Shown piece after piece: positions 7,001-33,881 of a stretch of DNA of 48,272 nt. A program made the translations under genes and the position numbers. Every line of letters begins with the position of its first letter. Within the stretch, counting starts at the first letter, position 1. The notes below the pieces were generated by a model. It did no database searches. It was not told the origin of the DNA and worked only from the letters and a program-made list of their open reading frames with translations. Source of the stretch: Rubritalea marina DSM 17716 (GTDB lineage: Bacteria; Verrucomicrobiota; Verrucomicrobiia; Verrucomicrobiales; Akkermansiaceae); NCBI RefSeq assembly GCF_000378105.1, contig NZ_KB899263.1, forward strand, positions 24,236-72,507, in the 5' to 3' direction.

Positions 7001-8095
7001 CTATGACTCCACAATCTTGCCGTCTGCTGTCTCTTGCTTCAGGCGTAACTGCCCACAAGCAGCATCGATGTCATGGCCCTTCTCGATGCGCAAGGTCGTG
7101 GTGACTCCATTTGCGCGAACGATGTCGCGGAACTTATAACAATGCTCCTCAGTAGGGCGCACCCACTCCAGCCCCTCCACCGTGTTGTAGGGAATCAGGT
7201 TCACCAGAGCGCCGAGCGCCTTGGCGCGTTTCGCCAGAATCTTTGCCTGCGCGAGATCATCATTGATCCCTTGGATGAGAATGTATTCGAAGGTGATGCG
7301 CTTCTTCGACTTTGATTTGTAGTAGTGCAGCGCCTCAAAGAGCTCGTCGATCTTCCACTTCGAGTTCACCGGCATGATCTTGTCGCGAGTGTCATTGGTA
7401 GCCCCGTGCAATGAGATGGCCAAGCGGATCTGCTGCGGACGATCTGCCAGCTTTTTGATCATTGGCGCGAGGCCTGAGGTGGAGATCGTGATGTGGCGCG
7501 CTCCAATGTTCATCCCCCATGGCGCGGTGATGATGTCGAGTGCGTGGTTGAGGTTCTTAAAGTTGGCCAATGGCTCTCCCATCCCCATGAAGACGATGTT
7601 GTTGATCTTGCGTCCAGAATGCTTTTCCACCGCCATCAACTGGCCCACAATCTCATCGGCACTGAGGTTGCGCGTGAACCCATCTAGCCCAGAGGCACAA
7701 AACTTGCAGCCATAGGCGCAGCCTACCTGTGAAGAAACACAGGCGGTGTGCCGATCAGAGCGCTCCCCATACAAGGCCGGTGAGGCAGGGATCAACACCG
7801 TCTCGACATAGCGGCCGTCGTGAAGCTTAAACAAATACTTACGCGTCGTGTCTTCAGAACCCTGCACCCGCGCCAGCTCCAGCGGACTCATCCGGAAGTT
7901 CTCTTTCAAGGTGTCGCGCAATGCAGCCGGCAGATTGAGCATCTCATCCACCTTTTCAGCACGGTGGGTGTAGATCCACTCAAGCGCTTGCTTCACACGA
8001 TAGGCTGGCTGTCCGTGCTCATCATTGAGCAATTTTGTTAGATCATCGGCGGTGTATCCGAGGAGGCTAGGTAGTGCTTTTGGGATCGGGCTCAC
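7001..8095 (-). CDS. rlmN: 23S rRNA (adenine-C2)-methyltransferase RlmN
   Basis: A cytoplasmic radical-SAM enzyme that methylates C2 of A2503 in 23S rRNA and A37 of some tRNAs. The 4Fe-4S motif is CAYGCKFC, Cys126, Cys130 and Cys133. Other landmarks are FMGMGEPLAN for SAM binding, HITISTSGL, RLAISLHGA and the C-terminal Cys in DAACGQLRL, which with Cys119 region residues forms the methyl-transfer pair. The length of 364 is typical. It is divergent from purD across about 125 bases that contain an AATCCT/AGGATT palindrome at 8133-8146. Confidence 0.96.
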   Translation of the reverse strand: MSPIPKALPSLLGYTADDLTKLLNDEHGQPAYRVKQALEWIYTHRAEKVDEMLNLPAALRDTLKENFRMSPLELARVQGSEDTTRKYLFKLHDGRYVETVLIPASPALYGERSDRHTACVSSQVGCAYGCKFCASGLDGFTRNLSADEIVGQLMAVEKHSGRKINNIVFMGMGEPLANFKNLNHALDIITAPWGMNIGARHITISTSGLAPMIKKLADRPQQIRLAISLHGATNDTRDKIMPVNSKWKIDELFEALHYYKSKSKKRITFEYILIQGINDDLAQAKILAKRAKALGALVNLIPYNTVEGLEWVRPTEEHCYKFRDIVRANGVTTTLRIEKGHDIDAACGQLRLKQETADGKIVES

Positions 8096-17295: not shown

Positions 17296-18138
17296 ATGAG
17301 CACAAGGCCCGAAGATCAATACGAAGAACCAAAGATTTACCTTCTTCCCAACCTGATGACTGCGGGGAACCTGTGCTGCGGATTCTTTGCCGTGCTCACC
17401 ATCTTCAATGGCATGCAGCACGATGAATTCTCCGAAGCCTACAAGTACTACCAACAGGCCATCATGCTCATCTTCGGCTCCTGCATCTTCGATTTACTCG
17501 ACGGCCGGCTCGCCCGACTCGGCGGCCAAGAATCTCCCTTCGGACAAGAATTTGATTCCATTGCCGACGTCGTTTCCTTCGGCATGGCGCCCGCGCTTCT
17601 CGTATCCAAGGCCGTGCTTTTCCCACTCTCTGAGCAACTCGGCGACTTCAAACTCGGTTGGGCCATTGCCTTCATCTACCTGCTTTGCGGAGCCATGCGC
17701 CTGGCGCGTTTCAACTGCCTCGCCAACATGCCGAAAAAACCCAACGATAACATGGACTTCCGCGGCATCCCGATACCGATGGCAGCAGGCTTCATCGCCT
17801 CGATCACATTCCTCATCATTCACCTCTACCGCAGCCCGACCAACAACGACCCCGACCTCGGCGCTTGGAACTACGTGCTCGCAGCCACCATGCTTGGGCT
17901 ATCGGCCTTGATGCTATCCAACGTCCGCTACCCCAGCTTCAAAAAAGTCGACTGGCGCACCAAGGGCTCACTATGGGGCGTGGTCATCGGCGCGATCTTC
18001 TTCATGCTCCTACTCAACGAACAGACCCGTTGGTACACCCCCACCCTCATCTTCACCCTCTACCTCATCTACGGACTCGCCCGCCCCTTCTTGTCCAAGC
18101 GCCTACAAAAGCGCCTCGAGGAAACCGTCGAAAAATAA
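17296..18138 (+). CDS. pssA: CDP-diacylglycerol-serine O-phosphatidyltransferase
   Basis: An integral membrane enzyme that makes phosphatidylserine, the precursor of phosphatidylethanolamine. The CDP-alcohol phosphotransferase motif DGx2ARx8Gx3Dx3D is at residues 69-91 (Asp69, Gly70, Ala73, Arg74, Gly83, Asp87, Asp91). The start IYLLPNLMTAGNLCCGF is the typical first membrane segment of PssA. The 280-residue length fits the long-form bacterial enzyme. It is divergent from the rhodanese gene and 25 bases before the GHL10 gene, likely one transcript. Confidence 0.93.
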   Translation: MSTRPEDQYEEPKIYLLPNLMTAGNLCCGFFAVLTIFNGMQHDEFSEAYKYYQQAIMLIFGSCIFDLLDGRLARLGGQESPFGQEFDSIADVVSFGMAPALLVSKAVLFPLSEQLGDFKLGWAIAFIYLLCGAMRLARFNCLANMPKKPNDNMDFRGIPIPMAAGFIASITFLIIHLYRSPTNNDPDLGAWNYVLAATMLGLSALMLSNVRYPSFKKVDWRTKGSLWGVVIGAIFFMLLLNEQTRWYTPTLIFTLYLIYGLARPFLSKRLQKRLEETVEK

Positions 18139-18163: not shown

Positions 18164-19612
18164 ATGCGCCACAAGCTAAACACCCTCCTCACCCTCAGCA
18201 TCCTCCTCTGCGGAGCCCTCAGCGCCATCGCCCAAAGCTACGCTCCCAGCAACGCACAGCCTCCCGCCTTCCCGCGCGAATTCCGCGCCGCCTGGATCAC
18301 CACCGTCTACAACATCGACTGGCCCAGCAAACGCGGCCTCAGCGCCAGCTCCCAGAAGCGCGAGCTCCTCGCTATCCTCGACAAAGCAGCACAGCTCAAA
18401 CTCAATGCCGTGATCTTCCAAGTCCGCCCGAATGCCGATGCGGTCTACAAATCCAGCCTCGAGCCCTGGAGTTACTGGCTCACAGGCACCATGGGCAAAT
18501 CCCCCGGCTACGATCCTCTGGCCTTCTGCATCGAGGAAGCGCACAAGCGCGGCATCGAAGTCCATGCTTGGTTCAATCCCTTCCGCGCCCTGCCAAACAA
18601 GTCACTACCCACCGCCAGTAACCACGTCAGCCGCACCCACGCGCGCCACGTCGTCACCTACAAGAATTACAAGTGGCTCAACCCAGCATCAGCATTCAGC
18701 CGAGACCGCGCCCTGCGCGTCATCCTCGACGTGGTCAAGCGCTACGACATCGACGGTGTCCACCTCGACGACTATTTCTACCCATACCCGACCGTTGTCA
18801 AAGGCAAGGCCTCTCCGCGATTCCCCGATGGCAAAAGCAATGCCCAGCGCCGCGCCTACGTAGACCAATTTGTCAGCGACCTCTACCGCAAGGTGAAATC
18901 TACCAAGCCCTGGGTCCGCGTCGGCATCAGCCCCTTTGGCATCTGGCGACCCGGCGTGCCTAGCTCAATAGAAGCAGGCATCGACGCCTACGATCACCTC
19001 TGTGCCGACTCCCGCAAGTGGCTTCAAAAGGGGTGGGTCGACTACCTAGCACCGCAGCTCTACTGGCAAATCTCACCGCGCAAGCAATCCTACACCACAC
19101 TTCTCGAGTGGTGGCGCCAGCAAGGCAGCCGCCCCGTCTGGCCAGGCATCGCCACCGCACGCATCAAAAGCGACAAAGATCCTTCACGACGCTCATCCGA
19201 AATTATCAAACAAGTCAATTACAGCCGCAGCATTGGACGCAATTGGGCAGGCGCCATCCATTGGAGTATGAAGTCACTCATGCAAAACCGCGACGGCATC
19301 TCCACCAAGCTTCAGTCCACTACCTACGCCACACCCGCGCTTGTGCCACCCATGCCCTGGATCTCCAAACGCAGCCCAGCCACTCCAGAATTCAGCGCAC
19401 GCAACAATGGCGGTTCCGTCGACCTCAAGATCGGCAATGCCGCCCGAGGCACCCGCTTCGCAATCCAAGCACGCTACAACAATAAATGGTACTCGATTGC
19501 CACCGTCCCACACCGCAACCCCCGTATCAAAGGCAAGCCCAGCGCCATCGCCGTCACCAGCGTCGATCGCTACGGCAATGCTAGCAAACCGCGTGTGCTC
19601 GCACGGCGCTAG
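18164..19612 (+). CDS. GHL10-family glycoside hydrolase-like protein (DigH/YngK-like)
   Basis: A secreted protein of the GHL10 (DUF187) group, whose E. coli member DigH cuts denuded peptidoglycan glycan. It has a Sec signal (LLTLSILLCGALSAIAQS) and a TIM-barrel core with EFRAAWITTVYNIDWPSK, LNAVIFQVRPNADAVYKS, VHAWFNPFRALP, DGVHLDDYFYPYP and GISPFGIWRP. An Ig/fibronectin-like tail of about 80 residues follows from about residue 400. Length is 482. It follows pssA by 25 bases. A cell-wall or polysaccharide glycosidase is likely; substrate not shown. Confidence 0.85.
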   Translation: MRHKLNTLLTLSILLCGALSAIAQSYAPSNAQPPAFPREFRAAWITTVYNIDWPSKRGLSASSQKRELLAILDKAAQLKLNAVIFQVRPNADAVYKSSLEPWSYWLTGTMGKSPGYDPLAFCIEEAHKRGIEVHAWFNPFRALPNKSLPTASNHVSRTHARHVVTYKNYKWLNPASAFSRDRALRVILDVVKRYDIDGVHLDDYFYPYPTVVKGKASPRFPDGKSNAQRRAYVDQFVSDLYRKVKSTKPWVRVGISPFGIWRPGVPSSIEAGIDAYDHLCADSRKWLQKGWVDYLAPQLYWQISPRKQSYTTLLEWWRQQGSRPVWPGIATARIKSDKDPSRRSSEIIKQVNYSRSIGRNWAGAIHWSMKSLMQNRDGISTKLQSTTYATPALVPPMPWISKRSPATPEFSARNNGGSVDLKIGNAARGTRFAIQARYNNKWYSIATVPHRNPRIKGKPSAIAVTSVDRYGNASKPRVLARR

Positions 19613-22534: not shown

Positions 22535-22765
22535 TAGCTATGCTGCCAAACCACACATTATTCAAGCCCTATGAATAGCGGCCTCATCCAAGGGATGCGC
22601 TCATGCCTCAGAAATTGAAATTGTACAAAATAGTTGGATAAGGGTGGCAGCCGGAGCCGTATCAATACTCAATCCTAAGTGCATGAACCGCTCATTTATT
22701 CTAGGCAATGAGCTGAGCTTCTCGTATCTACATGATCGAATTGCTCCCTAAGCATAGACTGAATC

Positions 22766-24727
22766 ATGAACCGTGTATTACTCCTCTTCTTTTTGAGCAG
22801 CTTATGGCTCAGCCCCACTGCATGGGCTCAACGCCTGCAGTATTCGCCAGAAAAGATGTCACTAAACGCCCTGGAACAGCGGCTCGAAGAGATTGATGAG
22901 CGGCTTAAGATGATCGCTCGGTATAGCCCACGTACAGGTGTCGGAGCAATTGGCTACCGCACCAAAATCAAGACCACCCCAGACTACCAAGAATGGGTCC
23001 GCATCGATCTAGGCGAAGTAAAACAACTCGAGGAACTGGTCTTGGTTCCAGTAATATGGCGGGATTTTGAAAGCGGATTTCTTTCAGATGCCTTCCCCGA
23101 AGAATTCACCGTTCGAATGGGGATCTCCGACACTGACGAAGGCGAACTTGTCGCTCACTACGATCGCTCGGATCGCATAGCCCCGCGAGTGGCACCTCTC
23201 ATCATCCCGGTGCCCAAAGTGCGCGCCAAATGGATCCAGATTGAATTCAAATCCCTTGCCCTCTGGCGCAGGACGAACCAATACGCCATCCAGCTCTCTG
23301 AGATAGCTGCCTTTGACGCCACAGAGAACGTTGCTCTGCGCAGGCCAGTTAGCAACTCTGGAACACGACCAGATATCCCAGCGTGGAGGCCTGCATTCCT
23401 CACCGACGGCGCCACCCCGTACTTGATGAATATCCCACGCGGTAAAGGCACTGTGGCAAGCTCTAGCGAAGCAAAAAAATCACCACAAGAACATTTTGAG
23501 TTCATCATTGATCTCGAAGAAGCCCAGCCTGTTGATGGCCTCAACCTTCATGCTGTGGAGCAAAGTGACACGGCACCGCAATCATTTGCCGGTGACTTTG
23601 GCATTCCCCACCACTTTAGACTTGAGGGAGCCATGAGCGCAGATTTCTCGGATAGCAAGACCTTACTGGAGCTGCAGTTCGATTCTATTTTCGACAAAAG
23701 CACCATCATGATGTGGAACTTCCCTGAGCACCATTGCCGATACCTCAAACTCACCGTACTCGATTCCTTTGCCACACAGCTGAGACACGCTCAGCTCTAT
23801 CGCGTAGGCTTTGCTGAGATAGAAATTACCTCCAAGGGAAAAAATGTCGCCTCCGGCAAACCAGTCACCGGAAACTTCTCCCTATCCGACCGCCAGCAGA
23901 CATTCTCGCGCTATACCGACGGGCTCAACCTCTACGGTACCATTCTCCCAATGCGTGATTGGCTTCGTGAGCTTGCAGAACGTCACCAGCTCGAGGCTGA
24001 GCGACCAATCGTTTCCAAAGAAATTCAAGCCCGCTACACCAAGCAAAAAAAACTACTATGGATCACCATCTGTCTCACGGTACTTAGTGGGGCAGGTGTC
24101 GCAGTGGTTTTAATTTACACTAAGACACTGCGCACCCGTGAGGCAGCTAAAATCCGTGAACGGATTGCCGCAAACCTCCACGATGAACTAGGGGCGAACT
24201 TGCATGCGATTGGCCTACTTGGCGACATGGCTAAAAGGCTGGCAGACTCCCCCGAAGAGCTCAATGAAACCCTCGATCGCATTCGGGGAGTCACTGAGCG
24301 CACTGGCATCGCGGCGATCCACTGTGCCAATATGATGGAAGCTGAAGGAATCTGCGAAAACGTAGTCGATGAAATGCAGCGCGATGCTTCGCGCATACTC
24401 GTAGACTTGAAGCACAGCATGCATGTTGAGGGAGAATCTTTCCTTCAAAAGGTGACACGCCGCACCCAGATTGACCTCGTTCTCTTCTACAAAGAATGCC
24501 TCATCAACATCATTCGCCACTCAGGCGCTACCGAAGCTGCCACTGAGTTAAAAGCCACAACAAACGCCATTTCACTTGTAGTTGAAGATAATGGAAATGG
24601 ATACGATGGCGGACTCTCGAAAGCACTCCAACGCCGTGCTCGCTTGCTCGGAGCCAAAGCCGAAATCGAAACATCAAGCCAAGGAGGCGTTCGAATCCGT
24701 CTGAGCCTCACCAAACTCAAACTCTAA
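22766..24727 (+). CDS. Sensor histidine kinase with discoidin-like sensory domains
   Basis: A 653-residue sensor kinase. A Sec signal (VLLLFFLSSLWLSPTAWA) leads into a long extracytoplasmic part. It contains one discoidin (F5/8-type C) like unit at about 50-185 (WVRIDLGEVKQLEELVLVPV, KWIQIEFKSL), a second at about 190-350 (NVALRRPVSNSGTRP, FLTDGATPYL, RYLKLTVLD) and the start of a third (KNVASGKPVTGNF). One membrane segment at 430-452 follows. The HisKA_3 domain carries His472 in IAANLHDELGANLHAI. The ATPase domain has KECLINIIRHS and VEDNGNGYDGGL. Eight bases separate it from its regulator. Carbohydrate sensing is inferred from the discoidin fold and the next genes. Confidence 0.85.
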   Translation: MNRVLLLFFLSSLWLSPTAWAQRLQYSPEKMSLNALEQRLEEIDERLKMIARYSPRTGVGAIGYRTKIKTTPDYQEWVRIDLGEVKQLEELVLVPVIWRDFESGFLSDAFPEEFTVRMGISDTDEGELVAHYDRSDRIAPRVAPLIIPVPKVRAKWIQIEFKSLALWRRTNQYAIQLSEIAAFDATENVALRRPVSNSGTRPDIPAWRPAFLTDGATPYLMNIPRGKGTVASSSEAKKSPQEHFEFIIDLEEAQPVDGLNLHAVEQSDTAPQSFAGDFGIPHHFRLEGAMSADFSDSKTLLELQFDSIFDKSTIMMWNFPEHHCRYLKLTVLDSFATQLRHAQLYRVGFAEIEITSKGKNVASGKPVTGNFSLSDRQQTFSRYTDGLNLYGTILPMRDWLRELAERHQLEAERPIVSKEIQARYTKQKKLLWITICLTVLSGAGVAVVLIYTKTLRTREAAKIRERIAANLHDELGANLHAIGLLGDMAKRLADSPEELNETLDRIRGVTERTGIAAIHCANMMEAEGICENVVDEMQRDASRILVDLKHSMHVEGESFLQKVTRRTQIDLVLFYKECLINIIRHSGATEAATELKATTNAISLVVEDNGNGYDGGLSKALQRRARLLGAKAEIETSSQGGVRIRLSLTKLKL

Positions 24728-24735
24728 TCAATCAA

Positions 24736-25407
24736 ATGCTAAAGCCGATCAAAGTCATGCTAGTGGAAGACAACCTAGAATACCGCAGCGTGCTCGAATT
24801 CGCCCTTGAGAAGGAACATGACATAGAGCTTTATGCTGCCTTCGGCACGGCTGAGATAGCCTTGAGGAAGCTTGCCGAATCAGACGCCTCTGAGCAACCA
24901 GACCTCATTCTGCTGGATTTAAATTTACCAGGCATGAATGGCCTCGTAGCGCTGCCTCAGATCCTCGAGTACCCCGCGGTCAAACAGGTCCTGGTACTAT
25001 CCAACTCAAATCAAGAAGCGGATGTCGTAGCCGCCATCAGCATGGGAGCTGCTGGCTACTTGCTCAAGTCCTCCACGATCGACAGCATCCTGGGTGGGAT
25101 TCGCTCGATCTCAGCGGGTGGCACCTTACTAGACTCGGCGGTGGCCAAGTACATCATTAGCCAGATCAAACCAAAAACCTCTCCAATTTATGAAAATGGA
25201 AGAGACGAGGTGCTCACAGATCGAGAAATCGAAGTCCTACGCCTTTTAGGCGACGGGATGGTGAAAAAAGAAATCAGTGACAGCCTAGGGATTAGCTACT
25301 ACACCGTCGATTCACACGTGAGAAACATCTATAGAAAAATGCGTGTGCGCAATGCTGCTGAAGCCATCACCAAAGCATACGCCATCCGGTTGTTCTCAGC
25401 TGAATAA
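24736..25407 (+). CDS. NarL/FixJ-type response regulator
   Basis: A 223-residue regulator. The receiver domain has Glu11/Asp12, the phosphoacceptor Asp61 (LLLDLNLPGMNG) and Lys111 (GYLLKSS). The LuxR-type HTH at about 158-220 contains LTDREIEVLRLLGDG and YTVDSHVRNIYRKM. It lies 8 bases after the kinase and is its probable partner. Its likely targets are the PEP-CTERM, GH95-like and sulfatase genes that follow, by position only. Confidence 0.92.
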   Translation: MLKPIKVMLVEDNLEYRSVLEFALEKEHDIELYAAFGTAEIALRKLAESDASEQPDLILLDLNLPGMNGLVALPQILEYPAVKQVLVLSNSNQEADVVAAISMGAAGYLLKSSTIDSILGGIRSISAGGTLLDSAVAKYIISQIKPKTSPIYENGRDEVLTDREIEVLRLLGDGMVKKEISDSLGISYYTVDSHVRNIYRKMRVRNAAEAITKAYAIRLFSAE

Positions 25408-25480: not shown

Positions 25481-26323
25481 ATGAAATATTCAGCCCTCGC
25501 AACAATGGCTTGTCTCTGCACAAGCGGGATCACTTCAGCTGCAACATACATTTGGAACGGCAATGCCAACGACCAAGACTGGCTTAACTCAGGGAATTGG
25601 GCCGGTGGCTCAGCGCCCTCCAGCCTATCATCTCCTACCGGACCTGATAATTTCGACACCATCATCTTCGATGGAAGCAACATGCCCACGGCAAACATCC
25701 CCAGCTTTAGCAGTGACCTTAGCACCAATGCTTCCAACCTCCAATTCAACAGCGGCGGCAGCTTTGCTTTGGATCTCTCTAGCAGCTTCGACGATGGACC
25801 TATTTCAAAAACTTCTCGAACATGGCTCACCGTTGGCGACGGTCTCGGACTAGCTGGCGATGTCACGGTCAACATAAACAATGCGAGTTACCTCCTCCGT
25901 CGCTACAAAGACACCACACTCAATTATCAGGTAAATGCAGACGGCATCTTAAATATCAACAGCGGCCTCACTCTCTACGGAGACAATAACAAGCACGTCA
26001 CCTTCACCCTCAATGGAGGCTCCCTCATCTCCACCGGAAGTGTCGACGAACGCTTTGACATAGGCAACAACCTCACCAATAGTTACTTCCAATTTGATGC
26101 TGCTGGTAGCTCCTTCACAGCCAATTACGGCGGAGCGTACGCAAACTTCGCAAGCCTGCAGGCTGACACCAATAACAACCTGCGTGTGGGAGCCGGGCTA
26201 GCACTCGACTTCCAGGACAACGGAGCAAGCTTCACCGTCACTGCAACTGCCGTTCCAGAGCCATCCAGCCTGGCACTCGTCGGACTCAGTACCCTCACAT
26301 TACTCACTCGACGCCGCCGCTAA
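25481..26323 (+). CDS. PEP-CTERM secreted protein 2
   Basis: A 280-residue secreted protein. The signal is ALATMACLCTSGITSA, followed at once by an autotransporter-like start (ATYIWNGNANDQDWLNSGNW, also seen in glycan-associated surface proteins). The tail VPEPSSLALVGLSTLTLLTRRRR is the full PEP-CTERM sorting signal. The body (about 140 residues) is Asn/Ser-rich with short strands. It starts 73 bases after the regulator and 92 before the GH95-like gene, so it is probably part of the same locus. Confidence 0.82.
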   Translation: MKYSALATMACLCTSGITSAATYIWNGNANDQDWLNSGNWAGGSAPSSLSSPTGPDNFDTIIFDGSNMPTANIPSFSSDLSTNASNLQFNSGGSFALDLSSSFDDGPISKTSRTWLTVGDGLGLAGDVTVNINNASYLLRRYKDTTLNYQVNADGILNINSGLTLYGDNNKHVTFTLNGGSLISTGSVDERFDIGNNLTNSYFQFDAAGSSFTANYGGAYANFASLQADTNNNLRVGAGLALDFQDNGASFTVTATAVPEPSSLALVGLSTLTLLTRRRR

Positions 26324-26415: not shown

Positions 26416-28827
26416 ATGACTGCCACCCGCATCTCGCCCATTGATATGTCTATCCGCGCTCTTATCCATTGCTGGGCAAGCATCGTCATTCTAGCCTCTA
26501 GTCAGCTCTCATTCTCGAAGCCAGCCCAATTCAACATCGATTGGGAGTCCTTTCTCTCGCGTCATGATATGACATGGGAAATGGTTCCGAAACGCTGGGA
26601 GCACGCTCCCTACTCGGGGAATGGCAATGTAGGCTTTCTCTTCTACCAAGGGAAAAGTAAGAATGTGATGTCCATCCATACTGGCCGACACGACTACTAC
26701 GACCATCGCTTGCCTGAAGGGGCTAAGGAACATTTGTGGATCTATCGCTGCAGACTCCCTCTAGGACACTTTGAACTACAATCTCAAGGTGACATCACGG
26801 GTGTGGACCTGCGGCTGAGACTCTGGGATGCCGAGCTTACTGGCACGGTCTCCACCACGCGTGGCTCCTACAAGGTGCGCGCGCTCTCACACAGCCAATT
26901 GGATGTGATCTACTTCGAAACCGATGCGGTAGACGGTGAGTCGGTAGAGATCACTTGGAAGCCAGCCATTCCCTACTCCTCCGTGCGCAAAACGTTGGAT
27001 GCTGGGCGCGGGCCCAAGGGCGGCAGCTGGGATAACATGCGAAAGGCTCCTTACCCACTCGCACCAGAACCCGTGCATAGCACACAACAAGGGACCCACT
27101 TCTGCCTGCAACAACTCCATCAGCAACGTGGTGAAACAACCACAGGGTGGACGATCGATGGTAGCACCACTGGCAAACAACAGCTCCTCGCCAGCGTCCA
27201 CCATTGTTTTCCGGGTGAAACCAATAGCAAACAAACCGTAGAATCATCTCTCAATCGAGGACGCGCCCTGATGCTAGACGGCGATTTCTTCAGCTCACAC
27301 CGAGCTTGGTGGCATGCCTATTACCCACAGAGCTTTCTCACCCTCAAGGACCCAGAAAAGGAAGCATTCTATTGGATTCAAATGTACAAACTTGGCTCAG
27401 CCATGCGTGAAAATGGCCCAATCCTCGACCTAATGGGTCCATGGTACCACGACACCTTCTGGCCAATGGTCTGGGGCGATTTGAACGTGCAATTGCAGTA
27501 CTGGACCCACTTGACAGCCAATCGAATGGCAGTTGGCGAATCACTGCCAAACAACCTAGATAAATACGCTGCGAATCTGTCAAAAAATGTTCCAAAGCGA
27601 TGGAAAGATAGCGCCGCCATTGCTGCTTGTTTCCCGCAGAATTGCTTAGCCAACAACAAGGCCAAAGTGCCCGACATGTTGGCGTGGATCATGCACAACT
27701 ATTGGCTACATTGTGAATACGCTGGCGATAGAGAACGGATGCGCGACGGGCTCTTCCCCCTGCTCAAACAAACGGTAAACAGCTACTTAAACTACCTCAA
27801 AGACAATCAAGTACCTTCTGCAGATGGCACAGTGCACATCAAACGCAGTTGGTCGCCAGAATACCCTGGTGGGAATGGCCAAGACGTCAACTTCACCCTC
27901 GCACTCCTCCGCTGGTCTTGCCAGACGCTTTTAAATATCAATCAAGAATTTGCATTGGATGACCCGCTATCGAGCGAATGGCAACACATAATCGACCACT
28001 TGGTCGCGTTCCAAATTGATGATAACGGTCTGCGCATTGGCAAGGACATCCCCTTTGATAAGCCGCATCGCCACTACTCACACTTACTCGCATTCTACCC
28101 CTTGGCTGTTCTCAAACCCGACGCACCAGAAGGCGTCGATCTCCTAACCAAGTCGCTGGACCACTGGCTCGACACGAGCATCAACGGCGCGCAGAAAGAC
28201 ACTGCGATGCCAGTGACTGGCTACACCGCTACGGGGGCCGCCTCCATGTATGCCATGGCTGGAAAACCAGAGAAGGCCTACCACTATTTAGATTTCCTCA
28301 TCCAGCATAGAAATGTCTCCACCACGACCATGTACGCTGAAGGAAATCCGGTAATCGAGAGCCCACTTTCCTTTGCCACCGCACTGCACGACATGCTCCT
28401 GCAGAGTTGGGGTGGCTGCATCCGCGTATTCCGCGGAACTCCAAAGAGATGGACAGACCTCGCCTTCCACAATCTGCGTACTCAGGGAGCCTTTCTCGTC
28501 AGCGCAAAGAAACGAGATGGCGCGACTCAGTTTGTCTCAGTCGAGAGCTTGGCTGGATCCCCTTGCACGGTACAGACTGACATCTCGAATGCTAAAATTT
28601 ACATCAACGGAACTGAGGCACCAAAGAGCAAAGTGAAACTCACTGCGCAAGGCTGCTACTCGATCGATTTGAATAAAGGGGAAACCGTGATCTTCACCCC
28701 CGTAAATCTGGCTGATACTGACCTAGTCATTTCGCCACTACCAATGGATCAAAGTCATCACCACTTGTTTGGGTTGAGTGACAAGACAAAGCGCCTCCCG
28801 GGGCATCAATTCTACCAAAGAAACTAA
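26416..28827 (+). CDS. GH95-like glycoside hydrolase
   Basis: An 803-residue secreted enzyme resembling GH95 (alpha-L-fucosidase/alpha-L-galactosidase). N-terminal part: WEHAPYSGNGNVGFLFY. Catalytic (alpha/alpha)6 region: LMGPWYHD, GDLNVQLQYW, WSPEYPGGNGQ, HRHYSHLLAFYPL and ALHDMLLQSWGG, all in GH95 order. Compared with the B. bifidum enzyme residues, by eye, Asn423 is kept (Asn357), Glu566 is kept (Glu482), but Asn421 is Asp355 and Asp766 is Glu648. Signal peptide: either ATG 26416 or ATG 26446 (MSIRALIHCWASIVILASS). Substrate is not proven; fucose or galactose residues of sulfated glycans fit the neighbours. Confidence 0.75.
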   Translation: MTATRISPIDMSIRALIHCWASIVILASSQLSFSKPAQFNIDWESFLSRHDMTWEMVPKRWEHAPYSGNGNVGFLFYQGKSKNVMSIHTGRHDYYDHRLPEGAKEHLWIYRCRLPLGHFELQSQGDITGVDLRLRLWDAELTGTVSTTRGSYKVRALSHSQLDVIYFETDAVDGESVEITWKPAIPYSSVRKTLDAGRGPKGGSWDNMRKAPYPLAPEPVHSTQQGTHFCLQQLHQQRGETTTGWTIDGSTTGKQQLLASVHHCFPGETNSKQTVESSLNRGRALMLDGDFFSSHRAWWHAYYPQSFLTLKDPEKEAFYWIQMYKLGSAMRENGPILDLMGPWYHDTFWPMVWGDLNVQLQYWTHLTANRMAVGESLPNNLDKYAANLSKNVPKRWKDSAAIAACFPQNCLANNKAKVPDMLAWIMHNYWLHCEYAGDRERMRDGLFPLLKQTVNSYLNYLKDNQVPSADGTVHIKRSWSPEYPGGNGQDVNFTLALLRWSCQTLLNINQEFALDDPLSSEWQHIIDHLVAFQIDDNGLRIGKDIPFDKPHRHYSHLLAFYPLAVLKPDAPEGVDLLTKSLDHWLDTSINGAQKDTAMPVTGYTATGAASMYAMAGKPEKAYHYLDFLIQHRNVSTTTMYAEGNPVIESPLSFATALHDMLLQSWGGCIRVFRGTPKRWTDLAFHNLRTQGAFLVSAKKRDGATQFVSVESLAGSPCTVQTDISNAKIYINGTEAPKSKVKLTAQGCYSIDLNKGETVIFTPVNLADTDLVISPLPMDQSHHHLFGLSDKTKRLPGHQFYQRN

Positions 28828-28895: not shown

Positions 28896-30455
28896 ATGAA
28901 AACAAACGCATTCAACCTCGATTCCCTCTTAGGTATCTCCCTGCTTCACGCTGCCTGCGTGGGACTGCTGCTGGGAAGCAACTTGAGCACTAAAGCAAAG
29001 AGCGCACAGCAGCCTAACCAGCCCAATGTGATCTTTGTGTTTTCCGATGACCAACGCTATGATTCGCTTGGGATGACAGGAGATCCCATCACTCAGACAC
29101 CGCACCTAAATCAATTGGCTGCTGACGGGGTCTTCTTCGATCAAGCATTCGTCACCAGCCCGATCTGCGGCCCCAGCCGGGCAAACATCTTTACCGGCCA
29201 ATGGGAACGCAAAAACCGTATTGGTTTTAACTTTCTATCAAAAAATATCATTTCACAGGAAGTCTTCGAAAATAGCTTCTTGATGCAGCTCAAGCAGGCA
29301 GGTTACTCGACCGCCTTCCTCGGCAAACACCACACCAAAATTGTGGACCGCAACAACACGCCACTCAGAGATCATATTGATTTTTGTTATTTTGCTGAGG
29401 GCCACCTGGGCTTCCACCCAGCGAAAAAGCATAAAGAGTTTTCGAACTTAAAAAACACATCGCAAACCGAAGGGCTTTTCGAAGCGACCAAGGCCTATTT
29501 AGCGACTGATGAAGACTTTGATTATTTCTATAAAAACGCAGACCCCAAGGTGAAAGCATCGCTCAAGAAGCGCGACCCTAAGAAGCCATTCTGTGCTTGG
29601 GTGAATTTAAATTTGCCCCATCAATCGAGCCTCGGCGGGATGGGCTCGCTTCCGAGCGACCCAGAATTCTACTCGACACTCTACGAGGAGAAGCAAGATC
29701 AGATCATCATCCCTAGAGACACACCCTTATTTCCTGATGAGGTTCTCAGCATCAAGAAAATGCCCGGCTACTACCGACTCAAAGGAAAAGCATTGCGCAA
29801 CACGAAGCTGAAGACAGCGCGCGCAGTCTTCGGAATCGACCAATACATCAAAAACCTCCGTGATCTCCTCGTGCAGATTGGAGAAAGCGAGAATACCATC
29901 ATCATCTTTTGCTCAGACAATGGATTGATCTACGGCGAACATGGCATCAGTGGCAAAAGCATGCTCTACGAAGAATCAGTTCACGTTCCCTTGATCATCT
30001 ACTCACCATTCATGGAACAATCCAAGGCCGGTCAACGTCTCGATTCTCTCGTGGTTGGTCAGGATATCCCGGCCACCATTCTCGACATGTGCGGGTTAGA
30101 CGTGCCCGATACCTACCAAGGTAAAAGCATGGTGCCCTTGCTGGAGGGTGACACCTCAAATTGGCGCAACGATGTGTTTTTTGAAAACCTCTTCACCGAC
30201 CAAGAATACCCAAGAGCTGAGTCCGTGCGTGGGGAGAAGTTCAAGTACATCCGCTACTTCAGCCGTGAAAACGACCGAAAACAATACTTACCCGATGCCT
30301 CAATCAATGGAGAAAAGCCGATCTATGAAGAACTCTTCGACTTGAGCAAAGACCCGAAAGAACAAGTCAATCTAGCAACCAACCCTGAATACTCCTCGGT
30401 TCTCGCCGCGCAACGCAAGCGCTGCCAAACCCTCGTTGAGGAACTCGCAAACTAA
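28896..30455 (+). CDS. Sulfatase 1 (formylglycine type)
   Basis: A 519-residue secreted type I sulfatase. The N terminus has a hydrophobic stretch (ISLLHAACVGLLLGS). The metal site starts with FSDDQ (Asp51, Asp52). The catalytic Cys91, converted to formylglycine, is in SPICGPSRANIFTG with Arg95. ICGPSR differs from the C-T/A-P-T-R of the other two. Later landmarks are FCSDNG for calcium binding and GISGKSMLYEESVHVPLI. It begins 68 bases after the GH95-like gene and ends 5 bases before the next sulfatase, so translation is likely coupled. Confidence 0.9.
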   Translation: MKTNAFNLDSLLGISLLHAACVGLLLGSNLSTKAKSAQQPNQPNVIFVFSDDQRYDSLGMTGDPITQTPHLNQLAADGVFFDQAFVTSPICGPSRANIFTGQWERKNRIGFNFLSKNIISQEVFENSFLMQLKQAGYSTAFLGKHHTKIVDRNNTPLRDHIDFCYFAEGHLGFHPAKKHKEFSNLKNTSQTEGLFEATKAYLATDEDFDYFYKNADPKVKASLKKRDPKKPFCAWVNLNLPHQSSLGGMGSLPSDPEFYSTLYEEKQDQIIIPRDTPLFPDEVLSIKKMPGYYRLKGKALRNTKLKTARAVFGIDQYIKNLRDLLVQIGESENTIIIFCSDNGLIYGEHGISGKSMLYEESVHVPLIIYSPFMEQSKAGQRLDSLVVGQDIPATILDMCGLDVPDTYQGKSMVPLLEGDTSNWRNDVFFENLFTDQEYPRAESVRGEKFKYIRYFSRENDRKQYLPDASINGEKPIYEELFDLSKDPKEQVNLATNPEYSSVLAAQRKRCQTLVEELAN

Positions 30456-30460
30456 GTATC

Positions 30461-31924
30461 ATGAACCGCTTCACCAGATTCCTAGCAGCCCTATGCATTT
30501 CCTCGGCAACACTCCAGGCAGCCAGCAAACCAAACATCGTCTACATCCTTACTGATGATCAGGGCTATGGCGATGTGTCATTGCTCAATCCCGAGCGTGG
30601 CAAGATCCCAACGCCGGCAATGGACCGCATCGGCAAGGAAGGCATGATTTTCACCGACGCCCATTCCGGCTCATCCGTGTGCACCCCCACCCGCTATGGG
30701 ATCCTCACTGGTCGCTACAGCTGGCGCAGTACATTACAGTCTGGTGTCGTTCAAGGGTTCGCACCCTGCCTCATCTCAGAAGACCGCCCCACAGTGGCCA
30801 AGTTCCTCCAACAACATGGCTATGACACCGCCATTGTTGGAAAATGGCATTTGAATTTTCAATACACCGACCCAAGCACAGGAAAAACACTCAAACGCAT
30901 CAAAAGAAAAGCGCTCGCTCCAGTAGGAAGTAAAATTCCAGATGGGCCAGTACACCGAGGTTTCAATTACTTCCACGGCTTTCACCACGCTGGCGACATG
31001 GAAGGTGTGATCGAAAATGATACCGTGATCGCACACGACCCAGTCATCAACATGCTCCCGCGCGTCACCAATAAAGCCGTGCGCTACATTGAGAATCACG
31101 CAAAGAAAGACCAAGCCAAACCTTTCTTCCTATACGTCCCTTATGGGTCCCCTCACACACCAATCGTACCCACCCCTGAATGGCAGAAAAAAAGTGGTAT
31201 TTCTCCCTATGCGGACTTTGTGATGCAGACCGATGCTGGAGTCGGCGAGATTCTCGATGCCCTCGATCGCTGCGGTCTCACTGATAATACCCTGGTCATC
31301 TTCACTGCAGACAACGGTTGCTCAAAAGCAGCTCAATTCAGCAGGCTAGAAAATAAAGGCCATTTCCCAAGCGCGCATTTACGTGGCTCCAAGTCAGACC
31401 TATGGGAAGGTGGCCATCGCGTGCCATTCCTCGTGCGCTGGCCAGCCAAGATCAAACCAGGAACACACTCAGACCAACTGATCTGCCACACCGACTTATT
31501 TGCCAGTTGTGCCGACCTGCTCGGAGCTCAGCTACCAGATAATGCTGCAGAAGATAGCGTCAGCATCATACCTGCCTTTTCAGGGAAACCCATCAAGTCC
31601 TCCCGCAAGGGAGTGATTCACCACTCAATCAGTGGACACTTTGCGTACCGTGAAGGAAAATGGAAATTATTGTTAGCGCGTGGCTCCGGTGGGTGGACTG
31701 CCCCTAAGGAAACCGATGCTAAAAAGACCGAAGCGCCGGTAGCGCAGCTCTACAATTTAGAAAACGATCCAGGTGAAACCACCAATCTCTACACGACTCA
31801 CCCCGAACTTGTAGCGCGCCTCCTAGCGCAGTTGGAATCCGATGTGGCAATGGGCAGAAGCACCAAAGGACCTCAAGCTCAAAACGATCTGCAGGAAATC
31901 AAACTCTGGAAGAGTGGCAAATGA
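30461..31924 (+). CDS. Sulfatase 2 (formylglycine type)
   Basis: A 487-residue secreted sulfatase of the arylsulfatase/GALNS-like class. Signal: FLAALCISSATLQAAS. Metal ligands Asp32/Asp33 in LTDDQGYGDVS. Catalytic Cys74 in SSVCTPTRYGILTG, Arg78. Further: GKWHL, PYGSPHTP, FTADNG, DLWEGGHRVPFLVRWP. It follows sulfatase 1 by 5 bases and precedes sulfatase 3 by 79 bases. Formylglycine formation needs a maturase, and none is in the window. Confidence 0.93.
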   Translation: MNRFTRFLAALCISSATLQAASKPNIVYILTDDQGYGDVSLLNPERGKIPTPAMDRIGKEGMIFTDAHSGSSVCTPTRYGILTGRYSWRSTLQSGVVQGFAPCLISEDRPTVAKFLQQHGYDTAIVGKWHLNFQYTDPSTGKTLKRIKRKALAPVGSKIPDGPVHRGFNYFHGFHHAGDMEGVIENDTVIAHDPVINMLPRVTNKAVRYIENHAKKDQAKPFFLYVPYGSPHTPIVPTPEWQKKSGISPYADFVMQTDAGVGEILDALDRCGLTDNTLVIFTADNGCSKAAQFSRLENKGHFPSAHLRGSKSDLWEGGHRVPFLVRWPAKIKPGTHSDQLICHTDLFASCADLLGAQLPDNAAEDSVSIIPAFSGKPIKSSRKGVIHHSISGHFAYREGKWKLLLARGSGGWTAPKETDAKKTEAPVAQLYNLENDPGETTNLYTTHPELVARLLAQLESDVAMGRSTKGPQAQNDLQEIKLWKSGK

Positions 31925-32003: not shown

Positions 32004-33881
32004 ATGAAATTCACACTACTCACCTCACTCAGCCTCCTCTGCGCGATCAGCACACCCGGCATTGCCGCTCAACGCCCAGAACAACCCAATGTCATCCTCA
32101 TCCTCACCGATGACCTCGGCTGGCAGGATGTGAAGTGCTATGACATCGATGCACCATCGCCTATGGAAACCCCAAACATCGACGCTCTAGCGCAAAAAGG
32201 TGTGATGTTTTGGCAAGGCTATTCCCCCGCTCCCACCTGCGCTCCCACGCGCTGCGCCATCATGAGCGGCAAACACCCAGCTCGAGCTCAAAAAACCCAT
32301 GTGGTTGGCGGAGCGCCACCCACCCCATACAACAAGCTTCAACACCGCATGATGGCTCCATGGTACAGCGGACGCATGCCAGAAAATGAAGTCACGCTGG
32401 CCAAGGTACTCCAACACAATGGCTACACCACTGGCCACTGCGGTAAGTGGCACATGGCCATCAACCACAACGCATTCCCACAACCAAAAGATCAAGGCTT
32501 CGACTGGAGCAGACACAACCTAGGAATCACCAAACTCATGAAGCCCAACCGCCTCACCGGCTTCGCCACATCAAGGGCTGATGATCCCTACCGCCTCGAC
32601 GAAAATGGCTTCGCCTATCACCAAAACAGTGAGGACGCTCTAACCTTTGTTAAGGAAAACAAAGATCAACCGTTCTTCCTCTATTACGCCACGTGGTTGG
32701 TTCACACTCCGATCCAGACACGCAACGAGCGCCTACTAAAGAAATACTGCAAAAAACTGGGAGTCGAACTCCCCCAAAAACCCAATGAATGGAACGGTGA
32801 AGGTCAAAGCAATCCCTTCTACTGCGCAATGGTTGAAGAGCTCGACTACTACGTGGGTCAATTAATCCAATACCTTGAGACGACTGACGACCCACGCTGG
32901 CCTGGGCACACGCTCAGTGAAAACACCTACATCATCTTCACCTCCGACAACGGCGGCATGGAAAAACACCCAGGTGAAATCATCACCGACAACTACCCGC
33001 TAGATCGCGGTAAAATCTCAGCCATGGAAGGAGGCACACGCGTCCCACTCATTATCACTGGCCCCAACATTCAAGCAGGAGTCCAGTCAGACGTGATGGT
33101 CAATGGACTCGACTTCTACCCCACCATCCTCACTTGGACCGGCGCAGACCTTCCATCAGACAAGCAACTCGACGGCTGCGACATCGCAGCATTGTTGGCA
33201 AACAACCCCACGGATCCCTCCCTTGTGAAAGAGTCCGACGGCTCACCTCGCGATACCATGGTGTGGCATTTCCCCAACAGCATCGCACTCGAAAGCACGA
33301 TCCGCGTCGGTGACTTCAAACTCGTGCGAAACTACGATCACGTCGACAACCCCAGAACCCCAGAGCTAGAACTCTTCCAACTCTACCAAAGCAAAGAAGG
33401 CAAGCAGCAACGCATAGACATCGAGGAAGCTCAAAACCTAGCGGAACAAATGCCTGAAAAAGCCATGGCGATGAATCAAAAGCTCAGCGAAATCCTCACC
33501 GAGATGGAAGCGAGCTATCCCTATTTCAACCCGGCCACGCGCCACAAGCTGCAGCACAAAGAATCTGTCTGCTCAGTCACCTCGCACCAGCAAGTCGGCA
33601 ATCAGGTGCATTTCCAGTTCGAAGAACATGGAGCGAAGGTGCTACGAGCTCAGCTTATCTACACCCTCAATGGCGGTCACCGCTACGAGGAATGGTTTCG
33701 CGAACCCGCCGAGCTAAAAGCAAATCAAACAGTCACAGCCAAGCTGCCCAACGGTACCACCCACTATGTTCTCAACTTGATTGATGAAAATAATTTCTTG
33801 GTCAGCTACCCAGAAATGCTCGATAGGAAGGCTGCCAGCAAGGAAAAGTATTCCACAAAAGCACTGGCTGTAGACAGATAG
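32004..33881 (+). CDS. Sulfatase 3 (formylglycine type)
   Basis: A 625-residue secreted sulfatase. Signal: LLTSLSLLCAISTPGIAAQ. Asp36/Asp37 in LTDDLGW. Catalytic Cys79 in APTCAPTRCAIMSG, Arg83. Further: CGKWHMAINHN, FTSDNGGM and MEGGTRVPLI. The C terminus (last 110 residues) is an extra domain after EMEASYPYFNPATRHK and may bind substrate. It differs from sulfatases 1 and 2 enough to suggest another sulfate position. It ends the plus-strand locus. Confidence 0.92.
   Translation: MKFTLLTSLSLLCAISTPGIAAQRPEQPNVILILTDDLGWQDVKCYDIDAPSPMETPNIDALAQKGVMFWQGYSPAPTCAPTRCAIMSGKHPARAQKTHVVGGAPPTPYNKLQHRMMAPWYSGRMPENEVTLAKVLQHNGYTTGHCGKWHMAINHNAFPQPKDQGFDWSRHNLGITKLMKPNRLTGFATSRADDPYRLDENGFAYHQNSEDALTFVKENKDQPFFLYYATWLVHTPIQTRNERLLKKYCKKLGVELPQKPNEWNGEGQSNPFYCAMVEELDYYVGQLIQYLETTDDPRWPGHTLSENTYIIFTSDNGGMEKHPGEIITDNYPLDRGKISAMEGGTRVPLIITGPNIQAGVQSDVMVNGLDFYPTILTWTGADLPSDKQLDGCDIAALLANNPTDPSLVKESDGSPRDTMVWHFPNSIALESTIRVGDFKLVRNYDHVDNPRTPELELFQLYQSKEGKQQRIDIEEAQNLAEQMPEKAMAMNQKLSEILTEMEASYPYFNPATRHKLQHKESVCSVTSHQQVGNQVHFQFEEHGAKVLRAQLIYTLNGGHRYEEWFREPAELKANQTVTAKLPNGTTHYVLNLIDENNFLVSYPEMLDRKAASKEKYSTKALAVDR

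Follow-up and report, generated by a model that had tools for sequence, protein, structure and literature searches.

A histidine kinase with discoidin-like sensor units beside PEP-CTERM, GH95-like and sulfatase genes in Rubritalea marina: a candidate for local, glycan-responsive control

The window, by which we mean the whole stretch of 48,272 nucleotides from Rubritalea marina DSM 17716 that was analysed, encodes a sensor histidine kinase of 653 amino acids (22766..24727, plus strand, ATG start). From N- to C-terminus the protein consists of a signal peptide, an N-terminal helix, two discoidin-like units and a partial third one, a transmembrane segment, HisKA_3 and HATPase, with a stalk between the partial third unit and the kinase core. 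The signal peptide and the single transmembrane segment were called by eye, and on the same basis the extracytoplasmic part reaches to about residue 429 and the H-box lies shortly after the transmembrane segment. HisKA_3 scored over its Pfam cut-off (30.6 versus 24 bits) and HATPase_c under it (16.9 versus 26.4 bits). The phospho-acceptor histidine, the N box and the G box are all present, and H472, N581, D608 and G610 of the kinase core (24125..24724, plus strand) are invariant in an alignment of 39 rows. This alignment holds the close kinases, defined as ORFs scoring more than 300 bits to the window kinase (n=41), with two truncated ones (L053 and L054) left out. The solved structures that best match the kinase part are DesK/YocF. 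The stalk (residues 393-429, window positions 23942-24052) is the best conserved region among the paralogs, with a mean pairwise identity of 0.495.

The gene downstream encodes a response regulator with a receiver and a LuxR/GerE helix-turn-helix (24736..25407, plus strand; Pfam Response_reg and GerE), of which D61 is invariant over 36 rows and is taken as the phospho-acceptor. It is followed by a PEP-CTERM protein of 280 amino acids without any other Pfam family (25481..26323, plus strand) and by a GH95-like glycoside hydrolase (26416..28827, plus strand), whose catalytic domain scored 78.3 bits versus a cut-off of 27 and whose C-terminal domain remained just under it (26.3 versus 27.6). Then come three sulfatases on the plus strand, at 28896..30455, 30461..31924 and 32004..33881, with PF00884 scores of 139, 176.9 and 157.6 bits. 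Each has exactly one C-x-P-x-R motif, the formylglycine motif of S1 sulfatases (CGPSR at residue 91, CTPTR at residue 74 and CAPTR at residue 79, respectively). The top solved chain for sulfatase 1 was 6hr5 (alpha-L-rhamnosidase/sulfatase), followed by the exo-L-galactose-6-sulfatase 7lha; S1_15 sulfatases were among the high-ranking chains for sulfatase 2, and the k-carrageenan sulfatase S1_16 (9fo1) was the top chain for sulfatase 3. Pfam thus bears out the neighbours listed in the initial annotation, which had named a regulator, a PEP-CTERM protein, a GH95-like enzyme and three sulfatases. All seven genes from the kinase to sulfatase 3 share one strand and could form a single transcription unit. 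A clean empty site for the island was looked for in genomes of the same genus and none was found; in G041, G095 and G022 the relatives of the two flanking genes are divergently oriented with 1.1 kb between them, and in G066 the distance is large.

In the window kinase alone, F5_F8_type_C matched at residues 71-96 with 15.8 bits, under the Pfam cut-off of 28.2. Among close relatives, PF00754 matched at E<=1 in 36 of 39 (best 1.4e-8), and among distant relatives at E<=0.01 in 15 of 19 (best 1.9e-11). Unit 1 (about residues 55-186; 22928..23323, plus strand) taken alone gave a PF00754 match at E<=0.1 in 30 of the 39 close relatives, and unit 2 (about residues 187-356; 23324..23833, plus strand) in 12 of 39, the window's own unit 2 not being among them. 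Profile-profile comparison (hhalign) with 17 F5/8C domains above the Pfam cut-off, drawn from three genomes, gave probabilities of 91.9 for unit 1 and 94.9 for unit 2 (92.4 and 95.6 in a rerun). Column shuffles of these profiles reached at most 3.3 (60 each), and control profiles of response regulators and of the kinase domain reached 0.1 and 0.9. The profiles of units 1 and 2 matched each other at 87.1. The third unit (about residues 357-392; 23834..23941, plus strand) consists of the N-terminal stretch only, after which the stalk begins; it matched unit 2 at 90.2 over about 32 N-terminal residues of that unit, and gave no match to F5/8C directly (0.3, with its own shuffles reaching 1.8).

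Profile searches of the PDB were suggestive only, unit 1 pointing to a fucolectin-related protein and to neuropilin-2 (E 0.005-0.02) and unit 2 to CBM6 and other entries at E values of 0.07 or higher. Single-sequence AlphaFold models of the sensor region (412 residues) had a pLDDT of 34.8, and unit 2 had 33.9. Models of such low pLDDT were not used, and the assignment of the discoidin fold therefore rests on homology. At the level of family profiles it is confirmed that the extracytoplasmic half has two units of the discoidin/F5-8C type, followed by the N-terminal portion of a third; the two full units (92-96% versus shuffles of at most 3.3) and the one partial unit proposed earlier hold up.

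Four matches to the kinase were found in the R. marina genome, which are the window gene itself, two copies with 42% and 39% identity and a distant one with 22%. Within the taxonomic family, matches at E<=1e-20 occurred in 59 of 117 genomes and 9 of 16 genera, with close and distant kinases pooled. A weak match to Verru_Chthon_A (26.7 versus 332.3 bits) agrees with an assignment to Verrucomicrobiota, perhaps Akkermansiaceae. At class level, E<=1e-60 was reached in 9 of 286 genomes, five of them beyond the family. No kinase relatives were found in viral contigs, and a scan of genome contigs gave a kinase-domain match only. One class-level genome, G350, has five kinase copies within the fetched stretches. 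In a quickly built tree, copies belonging to G350, G090 and R. marina were scattered, so that many of the paralogs are old. The distant kinase group aligns with the close family across nearly the whole length (E 2.5e-106). Three distant triple-discoidin kinases (L057, L058 and L065) are each followed by genes of similar sizes and are without PEP-CTERM or sulfatase neighbours; these kinases perhaps have another, older role.

The kinase gene of L047 (8997-11021) is broken by a stop codon, and the regulator, the PEP-CTERM gene and a palindrome are still present. Five neighbouring proteins in L091 (11686-17000) and L093 (2353-6600) are 67-97% identical across two genomes; the kinases of these loci are only 40% identical, and opposite ends face the shared gene block. 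This may reflect a regulator cassette that was swapped at one site. A second response regulator in L076 (13552-14202) closely resembles that at 7004-7654 and has no kinase adjoining it in that stretch.

Genes were called in stretches of at most 20 kb surrounding the close kinases. For neighbourhood counts the cut was set at 230 bits, which adds the N-terminal piece of the split L047 kinase (n=42). PEP-CTERM genes were called by their tail pattern, and Pfam at E<=0.01 confirms 18 of the 19 adjacent ones; sulfatases were called with a profile derived from sequences that matched the three sulfatases of the window. Forty stretches from nine genomes, with positions picked by round numbers, served as control. 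In 35 of 42 cases the regulator gene adjoins the kinase gene in the same orientation. In 19 of 42 a PEP-CTERM gene is an immediate neighbour of the kinase-regulator pair, versus 7.3% of the two-gene units of the control (binomial p 2e-11). Leaving out four near-copies (L038, L039, L051 and L082) gives 19 of 38, and where both flanks are visible the count is 17 of 28. Thirteen of the 19 adjacent PEP-CTERM genes are divergent and lie on the side of the kinase start. Beyond the sorting signal the 19 proteins are mostly unrelated, with matches in 7 of 171 pairs. A sulfatase is adjacent in 9 of 42 (6.8% in the control, p 0.0018). In the class-level loci, a PEP-CTERM gene lies within three genes of 5 of 9 kinases, all five in G350, and a sulfatase lies within the same distance of 4 of 9. 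In L181 (11355-18866), five consecutive PEP-CTERM genes lie beside the kinase with an exact repeated element between genes, and sulfatases lie on the opposite side.

Mapped on the quick tree, the PEP-adjacent label needs 11 changes, 8 of them forced by well-supported branches, and only 4 of 500 label shuffles were as low as 11. The label is thus clustered, so that the PEP-CTERM cases are not independent and the p-values overstate the significance. The recurrence of PEP-CTERM genes at the kinase is itself evident in these gene neighbourhoods. The initial annotation had placed the kinase in a glycan locus; this focus was too narrow, as the commoner partner is the PEP-CTERM gene (19 of 42) and not the sulfatase (9 of 42).

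It could be argued that the position of the kinase is incidental in genomes that are rich in sulfatase and PEP-CTERM genes. A genome of 3.0 Mb indeed has 37 sulfatase and 38 PEP-CTERM matches, and gene content around the relatives is fluid, both of which would fit such a reading. The low control values given above for PEP-CTERM and sulfatase genes nevertheless speak against it, as do the distant kinases of the same architecture, which have a PEP-CTERM gene beside 2 of 20 and a sulfatase beside 0 of 20 (the distant locus L066 has no kinase ORF and was dropped from these counts). We therefore disfavour an incidental position and regard it as very improbable.

A more serious rival is that the kinases sense a common state of the envelope or surface, such as exopolysaccharide, contact or the traffic of PEP-CTERM proteins, with PEP-CTERM genes as their targets and the glycan genes as passengers of the island. 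The excess of PEP-CTERM over sulfatase adjacency favours this, and so does the exosortase that was found in 7 of 7 genomes searched. It is also favoured by the sensor being about as conserved as the kinase domain: identity between paralogs is 0.42 and 0.39 for the sensor units versus 0.43 for the kinase domains. Such similar values give no pointer to sensors that diversified for different glycans, and since the sensor units are scarcely more variable than the kinase domains, a common cue stays a live rival. Sulfatase adjacency is, however, enriched too.

Linkage of the kinase to the hydrolase in relatives had been set beforehand as a test of the initial annotation, and its outcome was mixed. 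Within the neighbourhood set a GH95 gene lies near the kinase in three loci (the window, L085 and L092), and L182 is a further case. In L085, from another genus, the GH95 protein is 66-67% identical and the sulfatases up to 61-70%, the kinase is only 44% identical and the gene order differs. In L182, from another family, a sulfatase and GH95 adjoin the kinase. L092 is a weaker case, with GH95 at 39% identity and divergent from the kinase. On the negative side, none of the 12 loci fetched for their GH95 (L168-L173 at 50-69% identity, L174-L179 at 38-43%) contained a close kinase; four of L168-L173 sit on contigs no longer than about 16 kb, and in L172 a kinase of the distant type shares the stretch with GH95. 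With few linked loci on one side and 0 of 12 on the other, the link between GH95 and the kinase recurs and is not obligatory. That GH95 mostly occurs without a close kinase nearby agrees with a common envelope cue.

The region upstream of the window kinase contains an imperfect dyad with arms of 8 and one mismatch (22690..22713, unstranded), which is a weak candidate for an operator. No second copy of this dyad and no repeated operator were found in the window, which fits a single operon and proves nothing. An inverted repeat, CTATGGGnCTTTTGTnCCnTGG, is common to the kinase upstream regions of L040, L046 and L092 from three genera, with little similarity around the block, and a further copy lies in L047 between the broken kinase gene and the PEP-CTERM gene. 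In whole genomes the full pattern matched once each in 4 of 8, all four times at the kinase, the pattern having been supplied by three of those four genomes and not by G034. With up to three mismatches there were ten matches in total versus six for the reversed pattern; on the kinase contig of G090, an esterase gene and the PEP-CTERM gene are each preceded by such a match, these having two and three mismatches.

The same locus may carry its palindrome several times. In L092 it occurs before the kinase and before the PEP-CTERM gene, and also in the kinase-GH95 interval and upstream of a SASA esterase. L183 has a different dyad in the interval separating its kinase from a GH29 fucosidase, and this dyad recurs upstream of two PEP-CTERM genes; L091 has another, imperfect dyad before the kinase and before a PEP-CTERM gene. 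L180 carries a perfect palindrome of about 26 bp that separates a kinase from a PEP-CTERM-like gene (17890-17916), with a nearly complete second copy where the next PEP-CTERM-like gene starts (19030-19055); the PEP-CTERM genes of this locus were judged by eye. Overall, 9 of 41 kinases share a 20-mer (up to 3 mismatches) with another upstream region of their locus, versus 22 of 615 in the null (p 1.2e-5). The sharing involves a PEP-CTERM target in four of the nine (L091, L092, L183 and L180), the other five being L076, L087, L089, the first kinase of L180, and L181 with its repeated element.

Other searches of the kinase upstream regions gave less. Inverted repeats with arms of 8 and any spacer were present before 8 of 32 kinases versus 28 of 209 (p 0.079, not significant). 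A palindromic motif search reached 56.8 versus 41.1-48.5 in four shuffles, a modest excess, and a free motif search yielded a T-rich motif only. Near-copies and contig-edge cases (L038, L039, L050, L078 and L082) were left out of the motif, inverted-repeat and 20-mer tests.

The palindromes repeated within loci of relatives support local control of surface-protein and glycan genes. For the idea that the kinases regulate PEP-CTERM genes in response to a common cue, it is a point in favour that in four loci PEP-CTERM genes are preceded by a shared palindrome. Palindromes are also present in the kinase-GH95 interval and upstream of a carbohydrate esterase in L092, and between the kinase and the GH29 fucosidase in L183, and these are less easily explained if glycan genes are passengers. 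On balance, we consider a common envelope cue unlikely, though far from negligible.

Our preferred reading is that the kinase-regulator pair controls its own neighbourhood and responds to a probable glycan cue via the discoidin-like array, which we consider likely. The kinase would be the sensor half of a NarL-type two-component pair with a periplasmic triple discoidin-like array, of which the third unit is partial. The array would detect a cue from outside the cell or from the periplasm, probably a glycan, whole or as a fragment; a glycan as cue is what we infer from the fold and the neighbours. The kinase would then phosphorylate the adjacent LuxR-type regulator, which would bind a private palindrome before the kinase, the neighbouring PEP-CTERM gene and the carbohydrate-active genes. 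For the window, given its possible single transcription unit, this would mean that a sulfated glycan, perhaps one containing fucose or galactose, turns on the sensor, the surface protein, GH95 and the sulfatases together. Here we infer the class of the ligand, the direction of regulation, the binding of the palindrome by the regulator and the operon of the window.

More tentatively, and with somewhat less than even confidence, we propose that the lineage as a whole has an expanded repertoire of insulated switches, each with a triple-discoidin sensor, its own regulator, its own palindrome and a private set of PEP-CTERM and glycan genes. How such sulfatase-rich bacteria choose which glycan cluster to express is the question to which the candidate sensor, its partner and the operator sequences in relatives are offered here. 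The excerpted texts of two papers on sulfatase-rich bacteria (PMC8857213 and PMC13174399) make no mention of two-component systems or histidine kinases, and an AraC-family regulator was suggested for Coraliomargarita in the excerpt of PMC3035286. No description of a discoidin-sensor kinase was found in the literature searched, which comprised open-licence papers.

Among known systems, PrsK/PrsR of Proteobacteria is alike in being a kinase-regulator pair tied to PEP-CTERM genes, as described in the consulted sections of Haft et al. (2006; PMC1569441). According to the same sections PrsR is sigma-54-interacting, whereas the window regulator is of the LuxR type with Response_reg and GerE. Identity with PrsK was ruled out, as TIGR02916 was above its cut-off in 0 of 7 genomes; the best match in the R. 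marina genome had 91.2 versus 300 bits and was to another gene than the window kinase. In these sections, PEP-CTERM regulators beyond PrsK/PrsR are said to be still to be found, and the table lists Verrucomicrobium spinosum with 65 PEP-CTERM genes and with neither PrsK nor PrsR (Haft et al., 2006). If it exists, the repertoire of insulated switches would supply a regulatory arm that PEP-CTERM systems have so far lacked outside Proteobacteria.

The window pair resembles NarL/DesK-type (HisKA_3) systems in its HisKA_3 core, HATPase and adjacent LuxR-type regulator, and differs by its sensor, the discoidin-like array. With CBM32/F5-8C lectin domains the likeness lies in the fold, as judged from profile homology. 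The window units would, unlike these, serve as the input domain of a kinase; the single-sequence match of the window kinase is weak and its third unit is truncated. SusR and the hybrid systems of Bacteroidetes are fused or single-protein sensor-regulators with SusC/SusD in the locus. They share with the window system a membrane sensor that is encoded within a glycan degradation locus. The window system differs by its separate regulator, LuxR helix-turn-helix and discoidin sensor, and Pfam detected no SusC/SusD in the nine genes scanned, so that the initial view of the locus as unlike SusR/hybrid sensors stands. The proposed insulated switches, if real, would thus be a counterpart outside Bacteroidetes of SusR/hybrid control.
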